Positions 7,187-31,662 of a stretch of 57,061 bases of DNA are shown in pieces. The translations under genes were made by a program, and so were the position numbers. The notes below the pieces were generated by a model. That model made no database searches and had not been told where the DNA came from. It saw only the letters and a list, made by a program, of their open reading frames with translations. Position 1 is the first letter of the stretch; every line of letters begins with the position of its first letter. The DNA lies in the NCBI GenBank assembly GCA_016180645.1, contig JACPAV010000034.1, forward strand, positions 1-57,061, given 5' to 3'. The stretch is from Nitrospirota bacterium. Its GTDB lineage: Bacteria; JACPQY01.

Positions 7187-8188
7187 CTAAGATCCATCAA
7201 AGCGGGCGATCGCATAGAGATTTTCACCGCCGAAGTTTCGGACCGCCAGGTAGGGAATCATGAAGGGGCCTCCGAGGTTCACCGCCGATCGAATCATCGC
7301 CCCTTTCGCGCGGCGGAGTGGCGTGATCCAGCTTCGTAGGAACGCGGATCGGCCCTTCGGTCCATTTTCCGTTCCCTGCATCCCCGGCGCCATCGTAGAA
7401 GAGAGGGCATTCACGCTCGTGGCGGAGAGCAGAAGATTTTCGAGGTAAGATCGCGCCGCGCGGAGATCGTGGGAAGGCTGGATCACCAATTTTTCAACGT
7501 GGAGCCCGGCTTTCTTCAAGGCCTTCTCGAAGGCGGAATGGGTCCACCGGGTCAGGTGGTGGGGAGGGAAATCCCAACTTTCCCGGCCGAACCGAAGGGT
7601 CCACCGCTCCGCATTCGGAGTCGACAGGACCAGACACCCTTGCCTCTCAACCAGCGGCCGGAGGTTCTGGAGAAATCCGACGGGGTCCGGGAGATGTTCG
7701 ATCACCTGAAAGCAGACCAGTACGTCGAACGACCGGACCCCCGCCATCGAGCGGGGTTCAAGAAAATTCGCCGTGCGCAGATCCGAGAGCCCGTAGTGTG
7801 CGCCGGCAAATTTCAAGGCCCGCTCGTTTACGTCAAACCCCGTGACTTGGTAGCCTGCATCGCGCGCCCGACTCAGGAAATGACCGGTATGACATCCCAA
7901 CTCGGCCAGTCTCCCTCCGCGACAGGGAAGATCTTTGAGGAGCCGGCCGAACTCCCACCTCCAGTAGAAATCCGGCGAGAAGTGAGTCTCATAGTACGCT
8001 TGATCGCCTGCTTTCATCGGTGAGCTGAAACACAGACCGCACGAGAGGCATTCCGCCACGGTGAATTCGCCGCAACGCTCCACCGCGCGGAACTTGCGTT
8101 CTTCGCGACAGACAGGGCACGGTCCCTTCACTTCTGTGGACTCCGCGCTCCGGCTTGACCCTGCCGGGTGGGACGACGGATCAGGCAT
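7187..8188 (-). CDS. Class I SAM methyltransferase with N-terminal zinc ribbon
   Basis: A 333-residue protein. Residues near 25-60 form a two-knuckle zinc ribbon (CPVC ... CLSCGLCF), followed by a methyltransferase fold with SAM motif LAELGCHTGHFL and a post-motif ELxH-like stretch (VIEHLPDP). Zinc-ribbon plus Methyltransf_23/11 proteins of this layout are common in O-antigen and nucleotide-sugar clusters, where they methylate sugars. I chose the ATG at 8188 because it overlaps the upstream stop (ATGCCTGA), a sign of coupling. A longer form from 8242 would add 18 unrelated residues. Target position on the glycan is unknown. Confidence 0.82.
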   Translation of the reverse strand: MPDPSSHPAGSSRSAESTEVKGPCPVCREERKFRAVERCGEFTVAECLSCGLCFSSPMKAGDQAYYETHFSPDFYWRWEFGRLLKDLPCRGGRLAELGCHTGHFLSRARDAGYQVTGFDVNERALKFAGAHYGLSDLRTANFLEPRSMAGVRSFDVLVCFQVIEHLPDPVGFLQNLRPLVERQGCLVLSTPNAERWTLRFGRESWDFPPHHLTRWTHSAFEKALKKAGLHVEKLVIQPSHDLRAARSYLENLLLSATSVNALSSTMAPGMQGTENGPKGRSAFLRSWITPLRRAKGAMIRSAVNLGGPFMIPYLAVRNFGGENLYAIARFDGS

Positions 8189-9110
8189 GATGGCGAAGTA
8201 TGCTTTTGTCCCGGTGGAAAGCCAAGTCGAACATCCCGGCACAAAGGGCGGCCGAGTAGATGGTGCAGGCGATGGGGAACAGGTACGGATGGGTCACATT
8301 TCGGCGGTTCAACACCCAAATCCGGAATAGGCCGGAGATGGCGGCAAGGCTGGCCGTTCCCTGCCAGTTCTTGAGATAGAAGTAGAGAAGCGATTTCAAC
8401 TCCTCGGCCAGCGGCAGGTGTGCGAATCGCCGCTTCGTGCGGGTCCCCCCGCTGGGCGCTTTTAGGTGGTAGATCCCCGCTGTGGGATCTTGAGCGATGC
8501 GGCCCCCGGCGAGGTGGAACTTTCGCCCGAAATCGAGGTCCCCGTGAAGGCTGGCGCGACCGAAACACTCGTCCAGCCCCCCCACCGCGATGGCTGCGGA
8601 GCGAAGCACAGAGCAGTTACACGTGCGGAGGATCGAGATTTCGGTGCGGAGGGTGAGGGTTGCCGGGATGTGTGTCCATCCGAAAGGGTGGGTGAGCATC
8701 CAATCGGGGATCTTGTCCAGCGGCTCAAGGTTGCTGCCGCGCTCCCACCAGATGGCGCCGTTGACCGCCACGAGGTCCTTTTCTCCGTAGTTCAGGAGAT
8801 GGCGCCGCACGAAATCGCGCTTGATGAGGATGTCATCATCCACAATCAGCACGATTTCGCCTTTCGCCTCCCGGATGCCCACGTTCCTGGCGCGGCACGG
8901 ATTGGGCTCCTCCTGCCGGATGAGCCGAATGGCACCCGAACGATTGAGGCGGTCCAAGTCTTCGCGGGTCTTTTCCAGATGCGAGACCGACTGGTCGATG
9001 ACGAGAATCTCGTCCGGCTTGCGGTCTTGGTCGAGGAACTGCTGAATCGTCATCCGGAGGACTTCCTCCCGGTTATACGTAGGGATGACGACGCTGATGG
9101 AGGGGTTCAC
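8181..9110 (-). CDS. GT2 glycosyltransferase whose start codon is supplied by an inserted repeat
   Basis: A 309-residue GT-A glycosyltransferase beginning SISVVIPTYNREEVL, with the metal motif IVDDDILIKRDF. It resembles rhamnosyl- and galactosyl-transferase-like O-antigen enzymes. The only start near the conserved N-terminus is a GTG at 9110-9108, which lies on the junction of a 95-bp inverted-repeat element (9110-9204). An ATG further out (9221) would make the whole repeat part of the protein and is improbable. The gene sits between two methyltransferase genes in a leftward operon and overlaps the downstream one by 8 bases. Confidence 0.85.
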   Translation of the reverse strand: MNPSISVVIPTYNREEVLRMTIQQFLDQDRKPDEILVIDQSVSHLEKTREDLDRLNRSGAIRLIRQEEPNPCRARNVGIREAKGEIVLIVDDDILIKRDFVRRHLLNYGEKDLVAVNGAIWWERGSNLEPLDKIPDWMLTHPFGWTHIPATLTLRTEISILRTCNCSVLRSAAIAVGGLDECFGRASLHGDLDFGRKFHLAGGRIAQDPTAGIYHLKAPSGGTRTKRRFAHLPLAEELKSLLYFYLKNWQGTASLAAISGLFRIWVLNRRNVTHPYLFPIACTIYSAALCAGMFDLAFHRDKSILRHHA

Positions 9111-9204
9111 CCCGCTAGAGGCCCAGCGGCCTGCCGCGGGGAGGGACTCGGATCCGCCTTCTCGTAGGCGGGGGTCTGAATGCCCGTGCGAGCCTCTAAC
9201 GGGG
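9110..9204. mobile_element. 95-bp MITE-like element with CCCCG(T/C)TAGA inverted ends, flanked by TTCA direct repeats
   Basis: The ends are CCCCGCTAGA (left) and TCTAACGGGG (right), inverted with one mismatch. TTCA is directly repeated outside both ends (9106-9109 and 9205-9208). Two internal hairpins are visible (CAGCGGCCTGCCGCGG and a stem of GATCCGCC with GGCGGGGGTC). A homologous 89-bp copy with the same TTCA flanks is at 54923-55011. The element fills the gap between a methyltransferase stop codon and a glycosyltransferase start. It has no coding capacity, so any movement would depend on an enzyme in trans. Confidence 0.75.
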
Positions 9205-9205
9205 T

Positions 9206-9919
9206 TCAAGTTTGGGCGCAAATCAGGATATTCGCGCCTCCGGGGAGCCTTTCATCGAGATCGATGAGGGCCTCCCAGAAGCCAGCCCGGCTCATCGGCA
9301 ATTGGATCCCGCTGCCATACCCGGACAGGAGGTAGAAGAGGGATCCCCACCGGCGATGGGTAACGACGCGAAATCCCGCATCGGAAAGCCAACCCAGAAC
9401 GCCCTCCGCCCGCGCTTCCAATCCCCGAATGTCCTCGGGTTTGGAAAGAAATGCCGCGGCGGCCTTCCTGGGCACGGCCCCCAGCCACGAGAAAACGGGC
9501 ATGAAGAGAACCAAGCGTCCACCGGGTTTGAGAATCCGTCGAATTTCTCCAATGGCCGACTGCGGCTGATCGAGATGCTGCAAGACGGCCCGGCACACGG
9601 CCGCGTCGAACTCCCCGGTTTTGAAGGGCAGTCGCTTGATGTCCGTGCGGACAAGATTCAGAAGGGGCGTGCGCTTGGCGGCATCGCCCAGCATCGCGGC
9701 GGAAACGTCCACGCCGACCCTTTGGACACCCTCCGGGAGGTGGGAGAGAAGAATCCCCGTTCCGCAGCCGACGTCCAATACGCGGGCACCGGGGGTGGGA
9801 CTCAGCCATTCGACGCACCGTCGGATGGAGCGCAAATAGACGCGCTGCGCGGAAACAGATCGGACGTAGTAGTTGCGCACGAAATCGTCGCCCAGCTTCA
9901 GGAAAGTATCTTCGGCCAT
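9206..9919 (-). CDS. Class I SAM-dependent methyltransferase
   Basis: A 237-residue Methyltransf_11/25-type protein. It has the SAM motif VLDVGCGTGILL near residue 44, an acidic end of strand 2 (VGVDVS), RTDIKRLPFKTGEFDAAVCR (motif II region) and a C-terminal cap. I chose the ATG at 9919. A longer frame to 10036 adds 39 proline- and glycine-rich residues lying across the end of the upstream gene. The stop codon TGA (9208-9206) lies in the TTGAA sequence at the edge of the 95-bp repeat element. It is probably a glycan or sugar methyltransferase because of its neighbours, with substrate unknown. Confidence 0.82.
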   Translation of the reverse strand: MAEDTFLKLGDDFVRNYYVRSVSAQRVYLRSIRRCVEWLSPTPGARVLDVGCGTGILLSHLPEGVQRVGVDVSAAMLGDAAKRTPLLNLVRTDIKRLPFKTGEFDAAVCRAVLQHLDQPQSAIGEIRRILKPGGRLVLFMPVFSWLGAVPRKAAAAFLSKPEDIRGLEARAEGVLGWLSDAGFRVVTHRRWGSLFYLLSGYGSGIQLPMSRAGFWEALIDLDERLPGGANILICAQT

Positions 9920-20506: not shown

Positions 20507-21736
20507 TCAGGCCTGCTGGAGCTGCGCGCCGCGGCCCGGCCCCGAGGAGGACGCAGGGAGAAACCCGACTTTACTCCGGGCGCCGGTCCAGCGCACATCC
20601 GGGATCAAGACGTGTTTCCGGGCCAGGATACGCGACTTGAACGGCCCGAGGTCCTGAAGCATCGTCCGCACTTCCGTTTCGACGTCCACGGAAGGCTTGT
20701 AGCCCAAATCGAAAAGCTTCCGGTGATCCGGGTTGTAGTAGTGATCTTCCGATTCGAGGCGGGGATTCTCCAGGGGCCGGATCTCCACTCTCAAGCCGAG
20801 CCCGCCGCCGACCTGTTGAACGATCTGCGCGAGTTGGGTGACGTTGTAGACCTCCTGAAACTGGTTCAGCACGCGGTATTCCCCCTTGGAAGCGGGATTC
20901 TCCAGGGCCAGCGTCAGGCACTGCATGGAGTCTCTCAGCGGGATGAATCCGCGCTTCTGCCCGCCTTTCCCATAGGGGGTGAGCGGATGGCCCATTACGG
21001 CCTGACAACAGAAGCGGTTGATGACGGTGCCGAAGGCTTGATCGAAATCCAGCCGCGTCATGAGGGCCGGAGCCGTTTCCGCCCCGCCGGCCCGCGTCCC
21101 GAAGACGACTCCCTGCATGACGTCCGTGGCTCGCAAGCCCCAGATCCGGCAGGCAAACATGATGTTGTTCGATCCGTGTACTTTGCTCCAGTGGTACCAG
21201 GATCCCCCTTGGCGCGGGAAAGGCAGCCGGTCCCGTCGTCCTCGGTACTCGATTTCGAAGAAGCCCTCCGGGATATCGAGGTTTGGGGTTCCATACTCCC
21301 CCATGGTGCCCAGTTTTACCAGGTGGGTATCGGGGCTCCGGTGGCGGATGGCGAAGAGGAGGTTGAAGGTGGTCGTGAGGTTATTCGTTTGGACGAATAC
21401 GGCGTGGTGCGCGTCGACCATCGAATAGGGTGCGGAGGGGCATTCTCCGAAGTGGACGACCGCGTCCGGCCTGAACTCGCGGACCAGTTTGTCCACGAAG
21501 GCATACCGTCTCAGGTCGCCCTTCCAGAATCGGAGCGGTTTTCCGAACCGTTTCTTGAACGCGCGCAGGCGTTCCGCGATGGGAGGGGTGGGGATGGCGC
21601 TCCACGAGCCCATTTCCTGAACCCACTTTCGGCGGAAAAAGATATCGGCCCCGGCCACGTCATGCCCGCGAGCCGCCAGGGCTTGGGCGAGCGGCCATCC
21701 CAGGTATCCATCCATGCCGGCGATCAGTATTCTCAT
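20507..21736 (-). CDS. sqdB: UDP-sulfoquinovose synthase (SqdB/SQD1/Agl3 family)
   Basis: 409 residues, typical length for the family. UDP-sulfoquinovose synthase converts UDP-glucose and sulfite to UDP-sulfoquinovose in an NAD-dependent reaction. Visible family signatures are GMDGYLG (7-13), FGECPSAPYSM (97-106), LGTMGEYGTPN (142-152, holding T144 and E147) and the catalytic pair in SWYHWSKVHGSNNI (Y181, K185), followed by MQGVVFGTR. These correspond to the Thr, Glu, Tyr and Lys described for plant SQD1. A good AGGAGG ribosome site precedes the ATG. There are no photosynthesis or SqdC/SqdD genes nearby. The next upstream gene is a GT4 transferase, so the sulfosugar may go into the exported glycan or, less likely here, into the lipid SQDG. 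Confidence 0.92.
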   Translation of the reverse strand: MRILIAGMDGYLGWPLAQALAARGHDVAGADIFFRRKWVQEMGSWSAIPTPPIAERLRAFKKRFGKPLRFWKGDLRRYAFVDKLVREFRPDAVVHFGECPSAPYSMVDAHHAVFVQTNNLTTTFNLLFAIRHRSPDTHLVKLGTMGEYGTPNLDIPEGFFEIEYRGRRDRLPFPRQGGSWYHWSKVHGSNNIMFACRIWGLRATDVMQGVVFGTRAGGAETAPALMTRLDFDQAFGTVINRFCCQAVMGHPLTPYGKGGQKRGFIPLRDSMQCLTLALENPASKGEYRVLNQFQEVYNVTQLAQIVQQVGGGLGLRVEIRPLENPRLESEDHYYNPDHRKLFDLGYKPSVDVETEVRTMLQDLGPFKSRILARKHVLIPDVRWTGARSKVGFLPASSSGPGRGAQLQQA

Positions 21737-21754: not shown

Positions 21755-22912
21755 TCAAGCGCCATGTCCGGAAAACGAGGACTCATACAGTTGATGGAAT
21801 TTTCTTGCCATCGCCTCGGGGCTGAACTCCCGCGCCCATCGTTGGGCGCCTTCACGGCCTATTCTCTGCCGTTGCTCGGGGTCCGACAGCAGGGATTGCA
21901 GGGCGGAGTGAAGAGCTCGGAAGTCGCCCTCGGGAACGATGATCCCGGCTTCTCCGATCACTTCGGGGATGGCCCCCGAATCGGACCCCACCACGGGGAT
22001 CCCGCACGCCATGGCCTCGCCGATGACGCGGCCGAATTGCTCGCTCATGCCCGGGGTGGTGAGCGAGGGAACCGCCAGGATATCCATGGAGTGGAGATAG
22101 GCCGGAACCTCACGGGCGGAGACTCCACCGGCGAATCGGACCCGATGGGAGAGGCCGGTCGCCTGGGCGAGGAGGAACGCGTCGGAAAGGAAGGGGCCGT
22201 CACCGACGATCAGGGCGGCGGCGTCCGGCAAGCCGTGAAGCGCCGCCAGCAGAATGCTGATGCCCTTGTCCCAAATGATCCGGCCGATGAACCCCACCGT
22301 GGGTTTGCCGGCCGTGCCGTGGGTATCCCGCACGCGGCGCACGGCATCGGGGTCGGCCGTTTTCGCGATGCAAGGCCGGAAGGTGCGCTCAATCCGGAGC
22401 CGCCGGGGATAGCCGGCATTCCGCATGGCGCGGATGGCGATGGAGTTGACGGTGTTCCCGCCTGCGATCACCCTCCCGACCGTGGCCCACCAGAGTTTGG
22501 TGTGCCTTCCGAGCGGCGGCGCGGTGTTTGTGCTCTGCCAGAAGAAAACTCTCGAACAGAGCCGATGGTAGGCACAGAGACGGGCGATCTGTCGGAACTG
22601 GGGCGTCGAGGGCTCTTCATACACGTGAATCACGTCGGGATGGGCCTTTCGGAGCGCCTGTTTCAGAGGGGACTTGGCGAACTCCGATGCCCAATAGGAC
22701 GGATCTTTCAGTGGAAGATGGATGATCCGATAACCTTCGTGCGGCACGTCGGCCGACCATTTCAGGAGCTTCGCCCAGGGCGGGCCCGGGAAGGGGTAGA
22801 CTTCATCCGCCACGATCACCGTCAATTCGACGCCGGGAATGCGCGCCATCGCTTCGAACGTGGCCCGGTCGACGGGATCCAACCCATACGCACAGACGAT
22901 CGTGATCTTCAT
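21755..22912 (-). CDS. GT4 family glycosyltransferase (candidate sulfoquinovosyltransferase)
   Basis: 385 residues with a GT-B fold. The C-terminal donor domain starts around VGFIGRIIWDKGISIL and contains the retaining GT4 signature EQFGRVIGEAMACGIPVVGSD, with the E-x7-E pair intact. The N-terminal acceptor domain starts MKITIVCAYGLDP and has VIHVYEEPSTPQFRQ. It is adjacent to and upstream of sqdB in the same operon. The SQDG synthase SqdX is also a GT4 enzyme, so transfer of sulfoquinovose is a reasonable hypothesis, but family membership alone does not show it. The ATG overlaps the upstream stop by four bases (ATGA). Confidence 0.85.
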   Translation of the reverse strand: MKITIVCAYGLDPVDRATFEAMARIPGVELTVIVADEVYPFPGPPWAKLLKWSADVPHEGYRIIHLPLKDPSYWASEFAKSPLKQALRKAHPDVIHVYEEPSTPQFRQIARLCAYHRLCSRVFFWQSTNTAPPLGRHTKLWWATVGRVIAGGNTVNSIAIRAMRNAGYPRRLRIERTFRPCIAKTADPDAVRRVRDTHGTAGKPTVGFIGRIIWDKGISILLAALHGLPDAAALIVGDGPFLSDAFLLAQATGLSHRVRFAGGVSAREVPAYLHSMDILAVPSLTTPGMSEQFGRVIGEAMACGIPVVGSDSGAIPEVIGEAGIIVPEGDFRALHSALQSLLSDPEQRQRIGREGAQRWAREFSPEAMARKFHQLYESSFSGHGA

Positions 22913-23868
22913 GTGGGCTTCCCCACGGCCGCCCCGGCGCCTGGGCGGCCCCGTCGGAGCCGGTCGATCGCGCCCCGTTTGATCGCACGGGCCACGTTGG
23001 TCCAGAAGATGCCGGATTCCCGCATTTCCGGGATCCTCAGCAGGGCGGCGCAGAAGCCCAGAAATTCAGGAATGGAGTTTGCGGCGAGGTATTGGAGCGT
23101 GAACCAGGGGTCGCGCACGGTTTGATCGATGAGCGCCCGCTTGCAGGACTTGAATTCCTCTTCCGGCAGCACTTCTCGGATGATCCGGATGATGGAGGCG
23201 TAGCCGTGGTCGGGAGGCCGGTCGTAGTAGACCTTGTTGTTGACGCGGTGTTTGACGAGGGGAAACGCGGTGTAGTACGCGGGGGCCTTCTTGAGGGCGA
23301 TCCCCGTCACGTACATTTGGGCGAAGAGGCTGTCGATGTGCCGGAGGTGCCCTTCCCAATCGATGAGATCGCGGCGGAGGACCGTTCGGGAGAGCACGAA
23401 GCAAGGATGGAACAGGGACTCCAAGGCATCGGCGCCCGCGGAGAACCGTCTGGAGTTCGGGAAACCGGACCAAGACGACACCGGTGTCCCTTCATCGTTG
23501 AACCTCTCCAGGTGGCTCAGGATCAAACCGATCTCCGGATCTTCCCTCAGGATCCGGCGCACCTCCCGCAAGGCTCCGGGCAGAAGGAGATCGTCGTCCG
23601 TCAGAAAGAAGGCGTGCGATCCGCGGGCGAATTTCCAGACGTTGTGCACATTCATGGAAAGTCCCAGGTTCGACTCGTTCCGAACGTAGCGCAGCCGCGG
23701 GTCCCTGAACGAGGACACGACCTGCGGTGTGTCATCCGGCGAGGCGTTGTCGCTCACCACAATCTCCAGATCCGAATCGGACTCCTTGAGGACGCTTTGA
23801 AGACATTCGCGGAGGTTGGCGGCGCGCCGGTAGGTGGGGATGACGATGCTGATCCTCGGTGAAGGCAT
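22909..23868 (-). CDS. GT2 family glycosyltransferase
   Basis: 319 residues. The GT-A domain starts ISIVIPTYRRAANLRECL and contains VVSDNASPDDT and the metal motif LTDDDLLLPG. The C-terminal part has no clear membrane helix but carries a basic tail. It is similar in plan to abequosyl/rhamnosyl transferases of O-antigen clusters, which fits its position directly between the RfbH fusion and the GT4 gene. It overlaps the downstream gene by four bases, and 11 bases separate it from the fusion gene upstream. Confidence 0.87.
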   Translation of the reverse strand: MPSPRISIVIPTYRRAANLRECLQSVLKESDSDLEIVVSDNASPDDTPQVVSSFRDPRLRYVRNESNLGLSMNVHNVWKFARGSHAFFLTDDDLLLPGALREVRRILREDPEIGLILSHLERFNDEGTPVSSWSGFPNSRRFSAGADALESLFHPCFVLSRTVLRRDLIDWEGHLRHIDSLFAQMYVTGIALKKAPAYYTAFPLVKHRVNNKVYYDRPPDHGYASIIRIIREVLPEEEFKSCKRALIDQTVRDPWFTLQYLAANSIPEFLGFCAALLRIPEMRESGIFWTNVARAIKRGAIDRLRRGRPGAGAAVGKPT

Positions 23869-23879
23869 GGGATCCGGTT

Positions 23880-26114
23880 TCAGACCACCGCCCGGCGACC
23901 GGCCGTCTGACGGCGGAAAAAATCCCGGAAGCGTTCCAGGACGAAATCGATTTTCTCATCGGAAAGGCCCGGATACACGCCGATGAAGAAGGAATCGCGC
24001 ATGACGCGGTCGGAGTGGGCGAGGGATCCCGCGACGCGGGCCTTGATCTGGCGGTATGCGGGTTGGCGGAGGATGTTCCCCCCGAAAATCTCCCGCGTTT
24101 CGATGTTGGCCGTTTCAAGCCAATGAACCAGTTCGAAGCGTGACGCGCCTCCATGGACGGAGATGGGGAACCCGAACCACGAAGGATTCGCGCGCGAATC
24201 CCAACGAGGGAGGACGAGGCGATCCTGGTAGGACTGAAGGCCGTCGTAGAGTCGTGAGAAGTTTCGACGGCGCGCTTGAATGAATTCGTCCAGCCGGGCG
24301 AATTGCGCAAGGCCGATGGCCGCCTGCATGTCCGTGGGTTTGAAGTTGTAGCCGAGGTTCGAATAGGTGTATTTGTGGTCGTAGCCTTTGGGGAGGTCGC
24401 CCAGTTCCCAGCCGAACCGCTTTCCGCACGTGTTCGATTCGCCGGGGGCGCACCAACAGTCTCTTCCCCAATCCCGGACGGACCTGACCAGGCGGGAGAG
24501 GTGGGACCGGTTCACGACCACCCCCCCCCCTTCCCCCATCGTCAAGTGATGGGCCGGATAGAAGCTCAGCGTGGCCAGGTCGCCGAATGTGCCCACGCGG
24601 CGGTCGCCGAACGTCCCTCCCAACGCATCGCAGCAGTCCTCGATCAGGAACAAACGGAACTTTTCCGCCAGGCCGGTCAGGATCTCCATGTCGCAAGGGT
24701 TGCCCAGGGTGTGAGGGACCAGGATCGCCCGCGTGCGGGGCGAAAGGGCCGATTCGACGAGCGTCGGATCGATGTTGTAGGTGCCGATCTCGCAGTCGAC
24801 GAGAACGGGAACCAGCCCGCTGTGAACGAGGGGGGCCAGCGTGGTGGGGAAGGTCACCGCCGGGGTGATGACTTCATCTCCCGGCCGGAGGGGATGGTCC
24901 AGTTGGGCGGACATGAGGGTCAGGACGGCCGTCAGGTTGGCACTCGAGCCGGAATTGACGAGCACGAAGTCCCGTGATCCGAAGAATCTTTTCATCTCCC
25001 GCTCGAATCGGTCTCCATAGCGGCCCAGGGTGAGCCAGAACTCCAGCGCGCTGTCGACCAGGTTCGTCATTTCATTCTCTCCGTAAACCCGGCCCGAGTA
25101 TTGGATGCGCGACTTGAACGGGACGAAGGGCTCCGGTCGGTGGGCCACCCGATAGTATTCCCCGACCTTCTCGAGAATGTCCCGTCTCAGCGATTCGGCG
25201 CTTCCCGTTTGGGGCCGCGATTCGTGAGCGGACTGGGTATCGGAAAGCCAGTGTCGGCGGAAGCGTTTCAGGGCTTCCTGGAGATTCATGGCGTCCGTCC
25301 CGAGGAGCGTTTCCAGTTTGCCGGTGGTCAGGCCTCCTTGAAGAGGGCGGGTGGCACGCGGGCCCATGGCGGCCGTGGGCGTGGGGAGGACACGATCGGG
25401 ATCCAGAGACATGGACTTGGCGAGCTGCTTTCCAAGATCGCTGCGGGTCATACGATCTTTTCCAACGACGTTGAAGATCCCACCGGCGCCCCGCTGAACG
25501 AGTCGAACCGTGACCTCGGCCAGATACTCCGCAAGGGTGGGATTGCACCATTCGTCCGATGGAACCCGCATCGGCTTCCCGGTCGGGAGGACCTCCCAAA
25601 TCTGCATGGCGAAGTTTCGAGAAAGCCGGTTCCATCCGAAGACCGCCGTGGTTCTCACAATGATCGGATCGGACGTTTCGGATCGGATGCGTTCCTCCGC
25701 CTCGAGTTTAAGCCGGCCGTAGACGTTGACGGGGTGTGGAAGATCGTCTTCACTGTAGGGACCGCGCGTGCCGTCAAAGATGTAGTCCGTCGAATAGTAG
25801 ACGAGCCGCGCCCCTTGAGTCCGGGCGGCTTGGCACACATGGTCGATTCCGTCCACCAGAACCTCCCGGGCCTCCGCGGGGTGTTCCTCGCAGGCGTTCA
25901 CTCCGCCGGGTATGTTGACGGCCAGGAAAATCCATTCCGGTCGGGTCTCCTCCAGAGTTCGCTCGATGGCTCGTGCGTCCCGGATGTCCAGACGAATCGC
26001 GAACTCGGTGACGTGGCGAAAGGCTCCCCGGATGACTTGGACCCCGGAGTTTTCCAACGCGTCCGACAAGGCGGTCCCGACCAATCCCGAAGCTCCCAGC
26101 ACCAAGGCTTTCAT
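23880..26114 (-). CDS. Fusion: RmlD-like 4-ketosugar reductase + RfbH/E1-type CDP-4-keto-6-deoxyglucose-3-dehydrase
   Basis: One 744-codon frame. Residues 1-295 are an RmlD-type reductase (GASGLVG 8-14; STDYIFDG 108-115; YGRLK with Y132/K136). Residues about 305-744 are the PMP- and [2Fe-2S]-dependent 3-dehydrase RfbH/DdhC/AscC (E1). The usual PLP lysine is replaced by histidine in PAHHLTMGEGG (H522), as in E1 and ColD. The cluster cysteines C495, C553, C555 and C563 fit the E1 spacing C-X57-C-X1-C-X7-C exactly. E1 removes the C3 hydroxyl of CDP-4-keto-6-deoxyglucose, and the N-terminal domain would reduce C4. A separate E3 reductase (AscD/DdhD) is not in the window. Fusion of the first and last steps is unusual. 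Confidence 0.92.
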   Translation of the reverse strand: MKALVLGASGLVGTALSDALENSGVQVIRGAFRHVTEFAIRLDIRDARAIERTLEETRPEWIFLAVNIPGGVNACEEHPAEAREVLVDGIDHVCQAARTQGARLVYYSTDYIFDGTRGPYSEDDLPHPVNVYGRLKLEAEERIRSETSDPIIVRTTAVFGWNRLSRNFAMQIWEVLPTGKPMRVPSDEWCNPTLAEYLAEVTVRLVQRGAGGIFNVVGKDRMTRSDLGKQLAKSMSLDPDRVLPTPTAAMGPRATRPLQGGLTTGKLETLLGTDAMNLQEALKRFRRHWLSDTQSAHESRPQTGSAESLRRDILEKVGEYYRVAHRPEPFVPFKSRIQYSGRVYGENEMTNLVDSALEFWLTLGRYGDRFEREMKRFFGSRDFVLVNSGSSANLTAVLTLMSAQLDHPLRPGDEVITPAVTFPTTLAPLVHSGLVPVLVDCEIGTYNIDPTLVESALSPRTRAILVPHTLGNPCDMEILTGLAEKFRLFLIEDCCDALGGTFGDRRVGTFGDLATLSFYPAHHLTMGEGGGVVVNRSHLSRLVRSVRDWGRDCWCAPGESNTCGKRFGWELGDLPKGYDHKYTYSNLGYNFKPTDMQAAIGLAQFARLDEFIQARRRNFSRLYDGLQSYQDRLVLPRWDSRANPSWFGFPISVHGGASRFELVHWLETANIETREIFGGNILRQPAYRQIKARVAGSLAHSDRVMRDSFFIGVYPGLSDEKIDFVLERFRDFFRRQTAGRRAVV

Positions 26115-26134: not shown

Positions 26135-26584
26135 TTATCGGTTTTGGAGTTCCCAGTCGTAAGGGATCTCGGTGGTGGAGGGGTCGAGCCGAACAATTTC
26201 AGCGGGGTCGTGGGGCTCCGTGGCGCAATTGGCCACGAAGGCGGGGGCCGAGCCGACGCCCTTGAAGCCGTTCCAGACGAGCGCCGGAACGCGAACGAGA
26301 ACATGATTCGCCTCCCCCAGGAATAGCTCCATGATTTCACCGCGGGTCGGAGAACCTTCGCGCCCGTCGTAAAGAACGAGCTTGATCGTTCCGGACACAA
26401 CGGCATAGTTCAGGACCATGCGCTTGTGCAAATGCCAGCCCTTGACCACGCCCGGGTAGACCATGGAGAAATAGATCTCGCCGAACTTCTCGAAATGCGG
26501 GGCGTCCGCCCGCAACATGTGCATGATTTTTCCCCGCTCGTCCTGAATCTGGCGCAACGGATGGATCTGCACGCCTTGGATCAT
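26135..26584 (-). CDS. RmlC-like cupin sugar 3,5/5-epimerase (dTDP-4-dehydrorhamnose 3,5-epimerase family)
   Basis: 149 residues, shorter than classical RmlC (about 180). Cupin motifs are FSMVYPGVVKGWHLHKRM (histidines in the active-site position) and ELFLGEANHVLVRVPALVW. The context is CDP-glucose 4,6-dehydratase upstream and an RmlD-RfbH fusion downstream. In the ascarylose pathway an RmlC-like enzyme epimerises C5 of CDP-3,6-dideoxy-4-keto-D-glucose before reduction, and this gene is a good candidate for that step. A dTDP-rhamnose role is less likely because rmlA and rmlB are absent here. Confidence 0.82.
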   Translation of the reverse strand: MIQGVQIHPLRQIQDERGKIMHMLRADAPHFEKFGEIYFSMVYPGVVKGWHLHKRMVLNYAVVSGTIKLVLYDGREGSPTRGEIMELFLGEANHVLVRVPALVWNGFKGVGSAPAFVANCATEPHDPAEIVRLDPSTTEIPYDWELQNR

Positions 26585-26594
26585 CGTTCGCCCC

Positions 26595-27599
26595 TCATAC
26601 AGTCTGCCCGAAGAAACCCCTGTACCATTCGATGGTTTCCCGAAGCCCCTCCTTGAGGCCTATCTTCGCCCTCCAGCCGAGGAGGCGCCGGGCTTTGGCG
26701 GTGCTGAGGTGCTGGGACAGGATTTCGCCAGAGGCGGTATCGAGGATCTTTGGATGAATGTTGTCGGCTCCCATCAAGCGCCCGATTCGGCGCACGAGGG
26801 TCAGCACGGTGACCGGCTCTTCGGAGCTGAAATTGAAGGCTTCGCCTCGAATCTTCGCCTCCGCCAACCCGTCGGCCAACCTCAGGTAGGCGCGCACGAC
26901 GTCCTTGACGTAGGTGTAGTCGCGCACGTACTTCCCGTTGCTTCGGATGACCGGTCTTTCGCCTCCAAGCAGAGATCGGATGGTTCCCGGCACGATGCGG
27001 GACCAGTTCAGGTCGGCCCCTCCATACACGTTGCCGCACCGGGCGATGCCGACGGGCAGCCCATACGTGCGGTGGTAGCACCGGGCGAGCAGGTCGGCGC
27101 AACTTTTCGAGACTTCGTAAGGGAAGAGGCCGTTGAGGGGCATGTCCTCCCGATAGGGCAGCCGGGGGGGGGTTCCGTAGGCCTTGTCACTGGAGGCGAT
27201 GACGATCCGCCGGACGAACCCGGATTGCCGCCGGCAGGCTTCCAGAAGATGGTAGGTGCCGCGGATGTTGGCCTCGAACGTCTGGAGGGGCGATCGGGCG
27301 GCCGTGGTCACAATGGTTTGCGCGGCGAGGTGGAACACCGTGTCCGCATCATGTTTGAGGATGGCCCGTTCGAGGGTTTCCGGGTCCTCCACCGCTCCAT
27401 GGATCACCGAGATCCTTCGGATGTCGCCGCTCCGGAGCAGCTCGGAGTTCGGATCGGCGTCCCGGATGAGCCCGATGACAAAGGATCCGCGGGCCAGCAG
27501 CTCTTTGACCAGCCAGGAGCCGACGATTCCCGTGGCCCCGGTTACCAGAACGCGGCGGGAACTCCACGAGGGCCCCACCCTCTTGCCGTTTGGCTTCAT
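26595..27599 (-). CDS. rfbG: CDP-glucose 4,6-dehydratase-like SDR (RfbG family)
   Basis: 334 residues. The NAD motif GATGIVG is at 21-27, SSDKAYG at 136-142 provides the Ser/Asp/Lys of a sugar 4,6-dehydratase, and YEVSK has Y161 and K165. LAAQTIV, RCGNVYGG and VRDYTYVKDVVRAYL closely match the CDP-glucose 4,6-dehydratase group. This enzyme forms CDP-4-keto-6-deoxyglucose, the substrate of the RfbH domain encoded two genes downstream. The cytidylyltransferase (RfbF) that makes CDP-glucose is not in this window. Short gaps (10 and 16 bases) link it to its neighbours. Confidence 0.88.
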   Translation of the reverse strand: MKPNGKRVGPSWSSRRVLVTGATGIVGSWLVKELLARGSFVIGLIRDADPNSELLRSGDIRRISVIHGAVEDPETLERAILKHDADTVFHLAAQTIVTTAARSPLQTFEANIRGTYHLLEACRRQSGFVRRIVIASSDKAYGTPPRLPYREDMPLNGLFPYEVSKSCADLLARCYHRTYGLPVGIARCGNVYGGADLNWSRIVPGTIRSLLGGERPVIRSNGKYVRDYTYVKDVVRAYLRLADGLAEAKIRGEAFNFSSEEPVTVLTLVRRIGRLMGADNIHPKILDTASGEILSQHLSTAKARRLLGWRAKIGLKEGLRETIEWYRGFFGQTV

Positions 27600-27615: not shown

Positions 27616-28929
27616 TCACGAAAGCGCCGAGGAGATCCTGAACGTGACCGATGCCCATGCCCGGCGGCAGACGTGTTCGACGGTCCACCCGGCCCGCTTC
27701 AGCCATCCCCGGAGCGCTTCGGGGTCCCCCCACCTCTCGGCCTTCCGGAGCAGGGTTGCAGGCCCCTTCAATTCGGGATCGTGTTCGAGGGCCATCGCGG
27801 CATACTCCTTCCATCGGGTCCGACGGGTATCGACCCGCCTGAGTTCCGCTCGGGCCCAGGCGAAATAGTGTTCGGCCATCGACCGGCGAAGGGGGTTCGG
27901 TTGCTCCACCGCGGCCACGGGCGCCGGCCGGCCGTTTTGATGCAGGTCCGCTTCGAGGTGCTCGAACAGCGCGCGGAGTGTCTCGTGCGCTTCGTATTGC
28001 CTCAGCGCCCTCTGGTGGGCCCGGTTCGCCATCTCTTCCCTTTCCTTTTCGTGGGCCAGATAATACCTGATTTTGTCGGCGGCTTCCGCCGGCGATTGGA
28101 ACACGTCCACCTCGCGGCCGACGTCGAAATACTTTCCCAGGAGCGGCATGTCCTCGGTCAGGAGGAATCCGCCGCACATCGGAATCTCAAAGAGGCGGCC
28201 TTTCAGTTGGTGGGGCGCATTCGGATCATTGGGGTTCGACGTGAAGCTGAGATTCACCCGCGTGCGATTGACCGCCCTCACGAACTCCGCCGTGGAGAGA
28301 CCGGGATCCCGGTAGCCCCTCCCGTAGACGAAAACGTCCGCGCCTGCCTTGGCGATGTCCGCCATTGCCCGCTCCCGTTCGCCGTGCAAGGTGCCGACGA
28401 AGCCGGCGTCGTGTTCCTTCGGAACCCCGGGAAGCTTGGAAAAGACGGATCCATTGACGGGAATGATCGGCACCATCAGACGGGCGCGCGCGCCCATCCG
28501 GCGATAGGGTTCGACGACCGACGGCGTATTGGTGACGGCATAGTCGAGGTTGGGCAGCATCCATCGAGATCGGGTTTCGAACAAGACCTCGTCGTCGAAG
28601 AAAAAGCCCAGCACATGGGTCCCGCTCCGTCGGGCGGCCTGGAGGGTGGTGTCCGTCACCAGTCCCGTGAAATCGCACATATGGAGGAGATAGCGGGGCC
28701 GAAAGGTTTCCACCAGATCGAGAATCTCGCGGTTGGCTTGCGAGATTCCCCGTGCATTGGCGCCGGCGTAGATGTCGTACCGGAGGGCGCGGCGGAAGGT
28801 GCGGCACAACGGCTCGTACCAGGTGGCGTCTATGTCCCGGTTGCACGTGAGCTGGATCCCCGGTTCGCCGGCCAGGCCGAGCCCGCGCTGGCTCGTCAGG
28901 GTCACGAGGAGGACCGTGGCGTCAACCAT
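27616..28929 (-). CDS. CgeB-like glycosyltransferase (Glyco_trans_1_2)
   Basis: 437 residues from the ATG at 28929. A longer frame upstream reads through the Wzt gene in another phase and is not credible. The centre and C-terminus match CgeB-type GT-B proteins: AGFVGTLHGERERAM, then VNRTRVNLSF, LKGRLFEIPMCGGFLLTED and REVDVFQSPAEAADKIRYYL. These proteins are common in capsule and O-antigen clusters and presumably transfer a sugar in the cytoplasm before export. The ATG overlaps the end of wzt by 8 bases (ATGGTTGA), so translation is coupled. Donor is unknown. Confidence 0.82.
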   Translation of the reverse strand: MVDATVLLVTLTSQRGLGLAGEPGIQLTCNRDIDATWYEPLCRTFRRALRYDIYAGANARGISQANREILDLVETFRPRYLLHMCDFTGLVTDTTLQAARRSGTHVLGFFFDDEVLFETRSRWMLPNLDYAVTNTPSVVEPYRRMGARARLMVPIIPVNGSVFSKLPGVPKEHDAGFVGTLHGERERAMADIAKAGADVFVYGRGYRDPGLSTAEFVRAVNRTRVNLSFTSNPNDPNAPHQLKGRLFEIPMCGGFLLTEDMPLLGKYFDVGREVDVFQSPAEAADKIRYYLAHEKEREEMANRAHQRALRQYEAHETLRALFEHLEADLHQNGRPAPVAAVEQPNPLRRSMAEHYFAWARAELRRVDTRRTRWKEYAAMALEHDPELKGPATLLRKAERWGDPEALRGWLKRAGWTVEHVCRRAWASVTFRISSALS

Positions 28930-30208
28930 GGTGCGCCAGCTTCCACGTCGATCGTCCGTCCACGATGCCCGTGTTCGTGACCTCCGGGACCCCGCCGTTT
29001 TCCGCGTGGTCCAGCACTTCCAGAGTAATGGCGTCGAGACCGACGATGTTCTGGAGCCAGGAGTGGGCGACATCCGCCCCGATGTGGAGTCCGTACAGCC
29101 CCGGGCGCAGAAAATTGTCCAGGGTGAATTCGATCGTGTAGCGGCCCGGATCCAAGTTCCACAGCTTCCGATCGCCGTCATCGTCCTGGTGGACGGTGAA
29201 AACGTGGGACCCATCCACGGCGCGAATCCCCGCGCCGAAGGCGACATCCTTCAGGGGTTCCAGGGCTTCGATGTCCAGGCCGACCGCGATGGGCTGTTTC
29301 CAGAACAGGCTGAAGCTTCCATTCGCGCTGTTCAGCAACCGGATGCGCCGGATCCTCAATTTACGGACGCCGCGGTGGTGGTCCTCGTCACGGATGGTTT
29401 TTTCGGCCGCGTCCACTTGGTGCATGCTGAGGTACCGGGCCACCACGTCGTTGGCGGGCCCGTCGGCTTTCCGTTCGCCCTGCTCCAGAAGGATCGCCCG
29501 GGGGCAGAGCGCCTTGACGGTGCTCATGCTGTGGCTGACGATCAGGACCGTGCGGCCCTCCGAGGCGACCTGCTCCATCTTGCCCATGCATTTCTTCTGG
29601 AAGACCACGTCTCCCACGGCCAGGACCTCGTCCACCAGCATGATTTCCGGACGGAGGTGCGCGGCCACGGCGAAGGCGAGCCGCACGTACATCCCGCTGG
29701 AGTAGAACTTTACAGGCGTGTCGATGAATTTCTCCACCTCGGCGAACGCCACCATTTCGTCGAACCGCGCGTCAATTTCGGACTTCCTCATGCCGAGGAT
29801 GGCGCCGTTGAGATATACATTTTCACGGCCCGTCAGTTCCGGGTGGAAGCCGGTTCCGACTTCGAGAAGGCTGCCCACCCGGCCCGTGATCCGGGCACGG
29901 CCTTCGGTCGGTTCGGTGATGCGGGAGAGAATCTTGAGGAGGGTGCTCTTGCCGGCGCCGTTTCGCCCGATCACGCCGACCACCTCGCCGGGCTTCACCT
30001 CGAAGGAAACGTTCTTGAGGGCCCAAATTATTTCGTGGCTCGTGGCTCGTGGCTCGTGGCTCGTTGAAGATCGGAGAAGGCGGAAGGGGGATTTTATCTT
30101 GTCCATGAGGACGTCCCGCAGAGCGGTGTAGCCGTACAGGTTCCCCTGGCCGCTCCCGATCCGGTAGAGCTTGCTCAAGCCTTCGACTTGGATGACGGTT
30201 TCGGGCAT
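28922..30208 (-). CDS. wzt: ABC transporter ATP-binding protein Wzt with C-terminal glycan-binding domain
   Basis: 428 residues. Walker A GRNGAGKS is at 81-88, the signature SSGMYVRLAFAVA starts at 170, and Walker B IMLVDEVLAVGD is at 189-200. Residues from about 255 form a Wzt_C-type beta domain (FWKQPIAVGLDIEAL...GLYGLHIGADV) that in O9a/O8-type systems recognises the modified end of the O-polysaccharide. It pairs with the permease encoded 4 bases upstream to export undecaprenyl-linked glycan. Residues about 48-59 (SSTSHEPRATSHE) come from four copies of a 7-bp repeat inside the gene, an insertion relative to the usual Wzt N-terminus. The methyltransferases in the locus would fit end-capping of the chain. 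Confidence 0.92.
   Translation of the reverse strand: MPETVIQVEGLSKLYRIGSGQGNLYGYTALRDVLMDKIKSPFRLLRSSTSHEPRATSHEIIWALKNVSFEVKPGEVVGVIGRNGAGKSTLLKILSRITEPTEGRARITGRVGSLLEVGTGFHPELTGRENVYLNGAILGMRKSEIDARFDEMVAFAEVEKFIDTPVKFYSSGMYVRLAFAVAAHLRPEIMLVDEVLAVGDVVFQKKCMGKMEQVASEGRTVLIVSHSMSTVKALCPRAILLEQGERKADGPANDVVARYLSMHQVDAAEKTIRDEDHHRGVRKLRIRRIRLLNSANGSFSLFWKQPIAVGLDIEALEPLKDVAFGAGIRAVDGSHVFTVHQDDDGDRKLWNLDPGRYTIEFTLDNFLRPGLYGLHIGADVAHSWLQNIVGLDAITLEVLDHAENGGVPEVTNTGIVDGRSTWKLAHHG
30035..30062. repeat. Four tandem copies of a 7-bp repeat (GTGGCTC) inside wzt
   Basis: GTGGCTC is repeated four times without interruption (30035-30062) within the N-terminal coding part of wzt. Because the unit is 7 bases, gain or loss of one copy would shift the reading frame ahead of the Walker A motif and abolish the transporter, so it has the form of a phase-variation tract. 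The present copy number keeps the frame open. Confidence 0.85.
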
Positions 30209-30212
30209 GGCG

Positions 30213-31052
30213 TCAAATCACGTCCGCGAAGGTTCGTTCCATGCGGCGGAAGTACAGCAGACCCCCTGCAAGAACGGCGAGGACGACCGCCGTCGAAACG
30301 GCGATCAATCCGCCCGCCGGATGAGGCGTGCCCAGCAGGGCCCATCGGAAGCCTTCCACCACGCCGGCCATCGGATTGAGGCCGTAAAGCGTTCGCCATT
30401 TTTCCGGCACCAAACTGGCCGGATACACCACGGGCGTGGCGAACATCCAGAACTGGACCAGGAACCCGAGGACGTACCTCACGTCGCGGTACTTCACGTT
30501 CAAGGCGCACAGCCACAGGCCCACGCCCAGCGCGGTCATCATCGCGAGGAGGATGAAGAGAGGCAAGGTCCATACCGCGGCCGTGGGCGCCACCCTGAAA
30601 TAGACCATGAGGAGCAGAAGCATGCCGAAGGCGATGGCCAGATCGACGAGGCCCGACACCACGGACGAAAGGGGAAGGATCAGCCTCGGCACGTAGATCT
30701 TGGTGATGAGATTTTGGTGGCTGACGATGCTCTGGGTGGACTGGCTCAGGGCGTTGGAAAAATAGGTCCAGGGCAGCAGCGCAACGTAGCTGAACACGGG
30801 GTACGGTTGGCCGTCCGAAGGGATTCGCGCGAGCTTGCCGAAGAAGAGACTGAACACCACCATCGTGAAAAAGGGTTGGATGATCGCCCAGGCGGCGCCG
30901 ATCGCGGTCTGCTTGTATCGGACCTTGATGTCCCTCCAGATCAGGAAGTAGAGGAGTTCGCGGTAGTTCCAGATCTCGGCCCAATCCGGAAGCCGCCACC
31001 GGCTCGTCGGGTGGATGTCGATGACGGATCCTGATTCAATCGTTGCGTTCAT
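30213..31052 (-). CDS. wzm: ABC-2 type polysaccharide export permease Wzm
   Basis: 279 residues from the ATG at 31052, which overlaps the regulator's 3' end by 17 bases. An in-frame extension to 31187 is Arg-rich and unlikely. It has six hydrophobic segments in the ABC2_membrane pattern. ELLYFLIWRDIKVRYKQTAI precedes TM1, and LCALNVKYRDVRYVLGF and GLNPMAGVVEGFRWALLG are family hallmarks of Wzm/TagG permeases. It acts in the inner membrane with Wzt to move lipid-linked O-polysaccharide or another surface glycan to the periplasm. Confidence 0.92.
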   Translation of the reverse strand: MNATIESGSVIDIHPTSRWRLPDWAEIWNYRELLYFLIWRDIKVRYKQTAIGAAWAIIQPFFTMVVFSLFFGKLARIPSDGQPYPVFSYVALLPWTYFSNALSQSTQSIVSHQNLITKIYVPRLILPLSSVVSGLVDLAIAFGMLLLLMVYFRVAPTAAVWTLPLFILLAMMTALGVGLWLCALNVKYRDVRYVLGFLVQFWMFATPVVYPASLVPEKWRTLYGLNPMAGVVEGFRWALLGTPHPAGGLIAVSTAVVLAVLAGGLLYFRRMERTFADVI

Positions 31053-31662
31053 GCCGGCTTTGCGCGCCTGCCTCCGGCGAATGCCCGGGTCCGGGCGCCG
31101 GGGGACTGAAAAGGATTTCATGGAGCACCGAGACGCCGATATCGCCGCCGTTCCAGCGACAGTCGAGAATCGCCACCGGAGACCCATCGACCGCCGCCCG
31201 CCGTCCGTTGCCCGTTCGGGCCGATTTCCTTCCGGCCACGCCGTTCCATGACCTCACGCTCTCAAAGGTCACGTCTCCTCGAGACTTGAGCGCATCCTCG
31301 ACGATGTGCACGATATCCCCCTCGCCGACCACGACAAAATGGGATTTCCCCTCGGCCTGCAATCGTTTCAGCAAGGACTCGATTCCCTGCCGCAGGGTCC
31401 GGTACGAGTCCAGGGTTTTCTGGACGTACTGCACGGAGCGCTGCATGACGTGGCGCAGCCCGCGGGGCGTGACGAAGTAGCGGAGCCGCCGTCCATCGAC
31501 GCTCTTGGCCTTGACGAGGCCGATCCGCATGCAACGGCGCAGGATGATGTTCGCGAGGCCGTGGGAAATCCCGCTTTGCCGGGCCAGGGCTCGTTGGGTG
31601 AGGTTGGGGTCCGCGGCCAGGAGTTCCAAAATCCCATAGGCCCTCTCCGGAAGATTGTCCAT
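31036..31662 (-). CDS. Winged-helix MarR-like transcriptional regulator (EPS-associated type)
   Basis: 208 residues. Residues 4-70 form a winged helix-turn-helix (ERAYGILELL, LTQRALARQSGISHGLANIILRR), matching the small MarR-like regulators that head exopolysaccharide clusters. The middle part continues YVQKTLDSYRTL and a region VVVGEGDIVHIVEDAL that could be a ligand or partner domain. The C-terminal 60 residues are poorly conserved-looking. It is the first gene of the roughly 16 kb leftward run. Its start codon lies in a TGTCCA/TGGACA palindrome, so autorepression is likely. Its C-terminal codons overlap the wzm start. Confidence 0.85.
   Translation of the reverse strand: MDNLPERAYGILELLAADPNLTQRALARQSGISHGLANIILRRCMRIGLVKAKSVDGRRLRYFVTPRGLRHVMQRSVQYVQKTLDSYRTLRQGIESLLKRLQAEGKSHFVVVGEGDIVHIVEDALKSRGDVTFESVRSWNGVAGRKSARTGNGRRAAVDGSPVAILDCRWNGGDIGVSVLHEILFSPPAPGPGHSPEAGAQSRHERND

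Follow-up and report, generated by a model that had tools for sequence, protein, structure and literature searches.

The fused gene and its operon

The minus strand of the window (the whole 57,061-nucleotide stretch analyzed, from a Nitrospirota bacterium) carries an operon that is tightly packed around a fused gene, with gaps of -4 to 20 bases. The genes occur in the order Wzm, Wzt, glycosyltransferase, CDP-glucose-4,6-dehydratase-like SDR (GluDH), RmlC-like epimerase, fusion, and two glycosyltransferases, followed by a UDP-sulfoquinovose-synthase-like SDR and two methyltransferase-type genes (Table 1). The presence of the sulfoquinovose-synthase-like SDR hints that the glycan exported may include a sulfonated sugar.

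Table 1. Positions in the window of the fused gene, its domains and key residues, and neighboring genes
Feature	Position	Strand	Basis
Wzm-type ABC exporter permease	30213..31187	(-)	ABC2_membrane 9.8e-22
Wzt-type ABC exporter ATPase	28922..30208	(-)	ABC_tran 2.8e-22, Wzt_C 6.2e-9
CDP-glucose 4,6-dehydratase-like SDR (GluDH)	26595..27599	(-)	TIGR02622 best model, relatives beside RfbH
RmlC-like sugar-nucleotide epimerase, 149 aa, probable C5-epimerase	26135..26584	(-)	PF00908, orthologues
Fused gene, RmlD-type SDR + RfbH/E1 3-dehydrase, 744 aa	23880..26114	(-)	single open frame, both domain matches
N-terminal RmlD-type NAD(P)-dependent 4-ketoreductase domain (predicted), residues 1-285	25260..26114	(-)	PF04321
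Linker, residues 286-304	25203..25259	(-)	AlphaFold2 pLDDT, low identity among fusions
C-terminal RfbH/E1 3-dehydrase domain, residues 305-735	23910..25202	(-)	NF011936, phmmer, Foldseek
C495, putative [2Fe-2S] ligand (E1 C193)	24630..24632	(-)	alignment to 3bcx
H522, at aminotransferase Lys position (E1 H220)	24549..24551	(-)	alignment to 3bcx
C553, putative [2Fe-2S] ligand (E1 C251)	24456..24458	(-)	alignment to 3bcx
C555, putative [2Fe-2S] ligand (E1 C253)	24450..24452	(-)	alignment to 3bcx
C563, putative [2Fe-2S] ligand (E1 C261)	24426..24428	(-)	alignment to 3bcx
Family 2 glycosyltransferase, next operon gene, 11-base gap	22909..23868	(-)	PF00535 2e-27
Family 4 glycosyltransferase	21755..22912	(-)	PF00534 1.5e-33
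UDP-sulfoquinovose-synthase-like SDR	20507-21736	(-)	NF041015 555 bits vs cut-off 575

The first-pass annotation had described an uninterrupted frame running through two enzyme domains, and this was borne out. The gene read through from its ATG to the terminal stop codon without interruption, and the window contained no N. The GC content by codon position was uniform along its length, with third-position values of 0.69 to 0.85 in each 100-codon block, which is the pattern of one real gene. Residues 1 to 285 matched RmlD_sub_bind in Pfam (PF04321; E value of 4.7e-55, 187 bits against a cut-off of 27), with a score under the NCBIfam RmlD equivalog cut-off (TIGR01214; 162 against 224 bits). The C-terminal half matched DegT_DnrJ_EryC1 of Pfam over residues 347 to 729 (E value of 7.1e-85) and the NCBIfam RfbH model NF011936 over residues 305 to 735 (631.5 bits against a cut-off of 423). 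The closest solved structures by sequence (phmmer) were the E1 dehydrase 3bcx (4e-148) and its H220K mutant 3bb8 (8e-147).

The AlphaFold2 model, built from a 17-sequence alignment, had a mean pLDDT of 84 and a pTM of 0.78, and both domains were modeled with confidence. The pLDDT fell below 50 in the linker (residues 295 to 303) and in the cluster loop (residues 550 to 589); the low confidence of the latter would fit a loop that may need its cofactor and dimer partner. When the model was searched with Foldseek, 3bcx ranked first (TM score of 0.90 by target), and, of the fifty matches listed, the first to the N-domain was the RmlD-fold protein 2ydx. MAT2 beta chains were found among both the sequence and the structural matches of the fusion.

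Related fusions, conserved residues and history

A genome contig collection was scanned with the whole fusion protein, and the RfbH relatives were inspected for single-frame fusions. The scan gave five full-length examples, recorded under Acidobacteria gp13 (L009), Chloroflexi (L010), Elusimicrobia (L011), and Deltaproteobacteria (L012 and L020), and sampling of 295, 395, and 400 genomes from three of these phyla added L101 (from the phylum of L011) and L115 (from the phylum of L014). The search for this domain order elsewhere, proposed in the first-pass annotation, had therefore recovered the same two-domain frame in seven other genomes, all of them MAGs, at 53 to 63% identity. L014 has the fused arrangement with two frameshifts and was left out of the count of intact fusions, which stands at eight with that of the window. 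With the seeds and L014 counted, the fusion occurred in 2/295, 1/395, and 2/400 genomes of the three phyla and is thus rare. Linker length was constant across the fusions, with linker identity of 12 to 29%, and identity among the fusions other than L115 was 49 to 55% in the N-domain and 63 to 70% in the C-domain; the N-domain of L115 was 35.5% identical. A linker of constant length and variable sequence is expected of a selected two-domain protein and not of an assembly error. The gene at positions 23880 to 26114 is confirmed as a real RmlD-RfbH fusion.

Four other loci were considered as fusions and rejected. L042, L048, and L055 had query coverage suggestive of a fusion, but at the N terminus they matched either a dehydratase (neighboring or cross-matching) or nothing, and their frames differed or were interrupted by a stop; in L057, RmlD and RfbH are separate genes. 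The phage and plasmid collections held RfbH relatives, with no record spanning 80% of the fusion. Cyanophages MK016663, PV261924, and MK799832 have genes that share 35% identity with the RfbH half, and one cyanophage RfbH-like gene is annotated as CDP-4-dehydro-6-deoxy-D-glucose 3-dehydratase.

In an alignment of the window protein, the seven fused relatives, and 3bcx, H522 and the four cysteines C495, C553, C555, and C563 were invariant in all eight intact fusions and in 3bcx; Cys494, adjoining C495, varied among the eight fusions. These are the residues named by the first-pass annotation, and they align with H220, C193, C251, C253, and C261 of E1. Its C-X57-C-X1-C-X7-C spacing also stood, with the correction that H522 falls inside the 57-residue gap and lies outside the cluster motif. 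We infer that the C-domain would catalyze a PMP- and [2Fe-2S]-dependent C3 deoxygenation. The N-domain has a GxxGxxG motif at residues 7 to 13 (G7/G10/G13), S108/T109, and Y132xxxK136, and this set of SDR glycine motif and S/T-Y-K residues was complete in seven of the eight fusions. The exception was L115 (G866), in which, within fusion residues of about 105 to 140, Y132 is replaced by His and D110 and Y111 are also lost, while the nucleotide-binding Gly motif is kept and the E1 half remains intact.

A quick tree of RfbH with 40 rows and moderate support placed the nine fusions (L014 included) in a single clade of eleven members (SH-aLRT 87), the other two being the unfused L013 and L015. The L013 locus (positions 7565-9335) has the cassette RfbF-dehydratase-RmlC-RfbH, with RfbF directly upstream of the dehydratase and no RmlD-domain match left. 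Since L013 is nested beside the fusion L101 and its RfbH starts a few bases past the RmlC stop, the RmlD domain was probably lost there. Clade members recorded under distant phyla interleave in the tree, which points to transfer, and a single fusion event followed by spread through transfer is the likely history. Individual fusion MAGs may carry binning errors, and some of the contigs are short (7.2 kb for L009 and 4.4 kb for L010). The lineage of the window is very sparsely sampled: among 98 relatives, one genome is of the same family and the rest share only its taxonomic domain.

Predicted pathway, electron supply and alternative readings

The genes around the fusion suggest a CDP-sugar pathway. 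GluDH had TIGR02622 as its best-scoring model (202 bits against a cut-off of 278), and its relatives (47 to 66% identity) adjoin RfbH in many loci; the genome has one GluDH of this kind, with the next paralogue at 32%. The one glucose-1-phosphate cytidylyltransferase (RfbF) over the cut-off in the genome (317 against 300 bits) lies outside the window cluster, on contig C47 at 1432-2199, and RfbF is on the same contig as the fusion and close to it in the genomes of L011, L012, L014, and L020. The RmlC-like gene ends 20 bases upstream of the fusion start. Its product matched PF00908 (42 bits against a cut-off of 27), scored 23 bits against 156 for the rmlC equivalog, has 3ejk as its closest solved structure, and carries an HxH pair while lacking the Tyr-rich stretch of RmlC. 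Orthologues at 58 to 78% identity immediately precede the fusion in L011, L012, L014, L020, and L101 (six of the nine fusion loci with the window), and the order dehydratase, RmlC-like, fusion is also found in L011 and L014. The cassette RfbF / GluDH / RmlC / [RmlD-RfbH] thus recurs across loci. RmlC-like and RmlD-like genes are also paired in the unfused clusters L049, L052, and L057, the last with the same pathway parts as separate genes. From this context, CDP-glucose is likely to be the precursor, and the last reductase is likely to be the RmlD domain.

At three unrelated loci, pairs of E1_dh and transketolase-like TPP enzyme genes share a cluster with genes for the cytidylyltransferase, RfbH, or DegT: L098 (the window's own genome, C47; 1426-2199 and 9473-11471), L119 (11373-13126), and L015 (11374-13544, by translation only). 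They may perhaps carry out two-carbon branching on 4-keto deoxysugars, yersiniose-like.

We consider it probable that the fusion is a bifunctional CDP-4-keto-6-deoxyglucose 3-dehydrase/4-ketoreductase of a CDP-3,6-dideoxyhexose pathway making a 3,6-dideoxy-L-hexose, a rare kind of surface sugar. RfbF would make CDP-glucose, which the GluDH product would dehydrate to CDP-4-keto-6-deoxyglucose. The established mechanism of E1 and SpnQ is a PMP Schiff base with the 4-keto sugar, deprotonation by His, departure of the C3-OH, and reduction of the glucoseen by the [2Fe-2S] cluster (PMC8987622). By this chemistry, for which the residues are present here, the C-terminal domain would bind CDP-4-keto-6-deoxyglucose through PMP, H522 would take the proton, and, after loss of the C3-OH, the glucoseen intermediate would be reduced via the domain's own cluster to CDP-4-keto-3,6-dideoxyglucose. 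The RmlC-like product would invert C5, and the N-terminal domain would use NAD(P)H to reduce the ketone at C4; such a reduction is the plain reading of the retained SDR glycine motif, S108/T109, and Y132xxxK136. The last C4 reduction proposed by the first-pass annotation is thus the most likely role of this domain, given motifs intact in all fusions but L115. RmlC/RmlD-type chemistry on a 3-deoxy intermediate gives 3-deoxy-L-rhamnose, i.e., ascarylose, and with rhamnose-type stereochemistry this is probably the product, to be built into a polysaccharide for which the operon's Wzm/Wzt transporter is the exporter. The exact substrates of GluDH, the RmlC-like protein, and the RmlD domain are putative, all three scoring below equivalog cut-offs. 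In the ascarylose route the C5-epimerase acts between the 3-dehydrase and the C4-reductase, so the fused steps do not bracket the pathway as had been proposed, and the RmlC-like, cytidylyltransferase, and 4,6-dehydratase genes are separate. Fusion would hold the reductase near the dehydrase at equal dose.

The absence of the partner reductase E3, raised in the first-pass annotation, extended to the whole genome. No Fer2 domain was matched at an E value of 0.001 in this genome (97% complete, 4.7 Mb), which indicates that it has no E3 and makes an E3 hidden elsewhere in it unlikely. Two FNR-like proteins with FAD_binding_6 (234 and 333 aa), neither carrying Fer2, are encoded in it, and Fer4_7 was matched at some twenty places. 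The absence is not special to the fusion. A regular-expression scan, run with no positive control, gave no convincing plant-type ferredoxin ORF beside RfbH in the sampled RfbH loci, and no E3 was listed in three annotated alphaproteobacterial plasmid clusters with RfbH, for which the PLSDB gene tables are incomplete. Whereas E1 takes its electrons from E3, SpnQ takes them from ferredoxin/ferredoxin reductase or flavodoxin/flavodoxin reductase pairs (PMC8987622). Given these loci and the SpnQ precedent, the lack of E3 is unexceptional, and RfbH without E3 looks common. By analogy, generic donors of the SpnQ type would be the simplest solution for the fusion, with a 4Fe-4S ferredoxin or flavodoxin and an FNR-like flavoprotein in place of E3.

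The fusion might instead be bifunctional and yield a D-configured 3,6-dideoxyhexose of the paratose or abequose type, with direct reduction of the E1 product by the N-domain and with the RmlC-like gene serving another sugar or step. The divergence of the RmlC-like protein from rmlC is in keeping with this, as is the absence of an RmlC-like gene from the genomes of L009, L010, and L115 (all MAGs), so that an ascarylose-type route would not hold for every fusion. We nevertheless consider a D-product unlikely for the window, since the RmlC-like gene directly precedes most of the fusions, is paired with RmlD-like genes in unfused clusters, and accompanies a reductase of the RmlD type, which fits L-sugar reduction. 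For the three fusions without RmlC, a D-configured product would be more likely, or the pathway may have changed or be incomplete in the MAG. The loss of both RmlC and the N-domain Tyr in L115 fits a shared branch for these two activities.

It is decidedly improbable that the N-domain is a non-catalytic or regulatory partner that stabilizes the E1 domain, like the RmlD-like MAT2 beta subunit. L115 has retained the fusion despite the loss of Y132, D110, and Y111, and MAT2 beta chains are among the matches, but the full SDR motif set is kept in the other seven fusions at an N-domain identity of about 50%, and L013 has lost the domain entirely. There is a slim chance that in some members, such as L115, the NAD(P)-binding domain has come to contribute to reduction of the E1 intermediate or to recruit the reductase for it, giving an E3-independent, partly self-sufficient C3-deoxygenase. 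That the N-domain stands in for E3 in general, using NAD(P)H to assist reduction of the E1 intermediate, is very doubtful: the genome lacks both E3 and Fer2 and the NAD(P)-binding motif persists even in L115, but SDRs lack a flavin with which a hydride could be divided into single electrons, the four cysteines still imply one-electron input, and unfused RfbH loci also have no E3 nearby, so that no substitute is needed in the fusion. An assembly join or frameshift near position 25,220 uniting two genes, to which a draft genome, the adjacent separate genes of L057, and the frameshifts of L014 might lend color, is excluded by the seven single-frame relatives with one linker length and scarcely deserves credence.

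Relation to known systems and significance

The C-terminal half resembles E1 (RfbH/DdhC), the CDP-6-deoxy-L-threo-D-glycero-4-hexulose-3-dehydrase of Yersinia pseudotuberculosis (3bcx), in fold, in His 220, in the four [2Fe-2S] cysteines, and in about 50% identity over 432 residues; it differs in the preceding 285-aa RmlD domain and in the lack of E3 in its genome. The Yersinia ascarylose pathway proceeds through E1/E3, a C5-epimerase, and a C4-reductase. The same activities (cytidylyltransferase, 4,6-dehydratase, 3-dehydrase, epimerase, and reductase) are predicted here, but with dehydrase and reductase fused, no E3, and RfbF unlinked. SpnQ, the dTDP-4-keto-2,6-dideoxyglucose 3-dehydrase of Saccharopolyspora spinosa, is by its description alike in its E1-like PMP/[2Fe-2S] mechanism and in having generic ferredoxin/flavodoxin reductases replace E3 (PMC8987622), whereas it is a separate enzyme acting on the dTDP trideoxysugar of an antibiotic. 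The cluster rfbF-rfbG-rfbH-rfbC-SDR on the Qipengyuania spongiae plasmid NZ_CP092472 has the same five functions, with no E3 in the stretch read, but all of its genes are separate. A precedent for an RmlD-type reductase joined to another deoxysugar enzyme is the RmlC/D fusion of Prymnesium parvum (PMC6556577), which in contrast joins two rhamnose enzymes in a microalga and includes no PLP-fold dehydrase. It was the one fusion returned by the literature search, and the open-access papers searched contained no description of an RmlD-RfbH fusion.

The RmlD-RfbH fusion is genuine, conserved, and apparently undescribed, combining two known enzyme families, normally encoded by separate genes, within a known type of pathway. 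It represents a two-domain version of the E1 dehydrase that is stable and conserved, recorded under four phylum-level names beyond the lineage of the window. As a single protein, it also offers a convenient handle on the electron donor of E1-type enzymes that operate without E3. Ascarylose-type sugars have been characterized mainly in Yersinia and are known in nematode ascarosides. The present data suggest that uncultured bacteria of soil and groundwater may also make ascarylose-type 3,6-dideoxy-L-hexoses.
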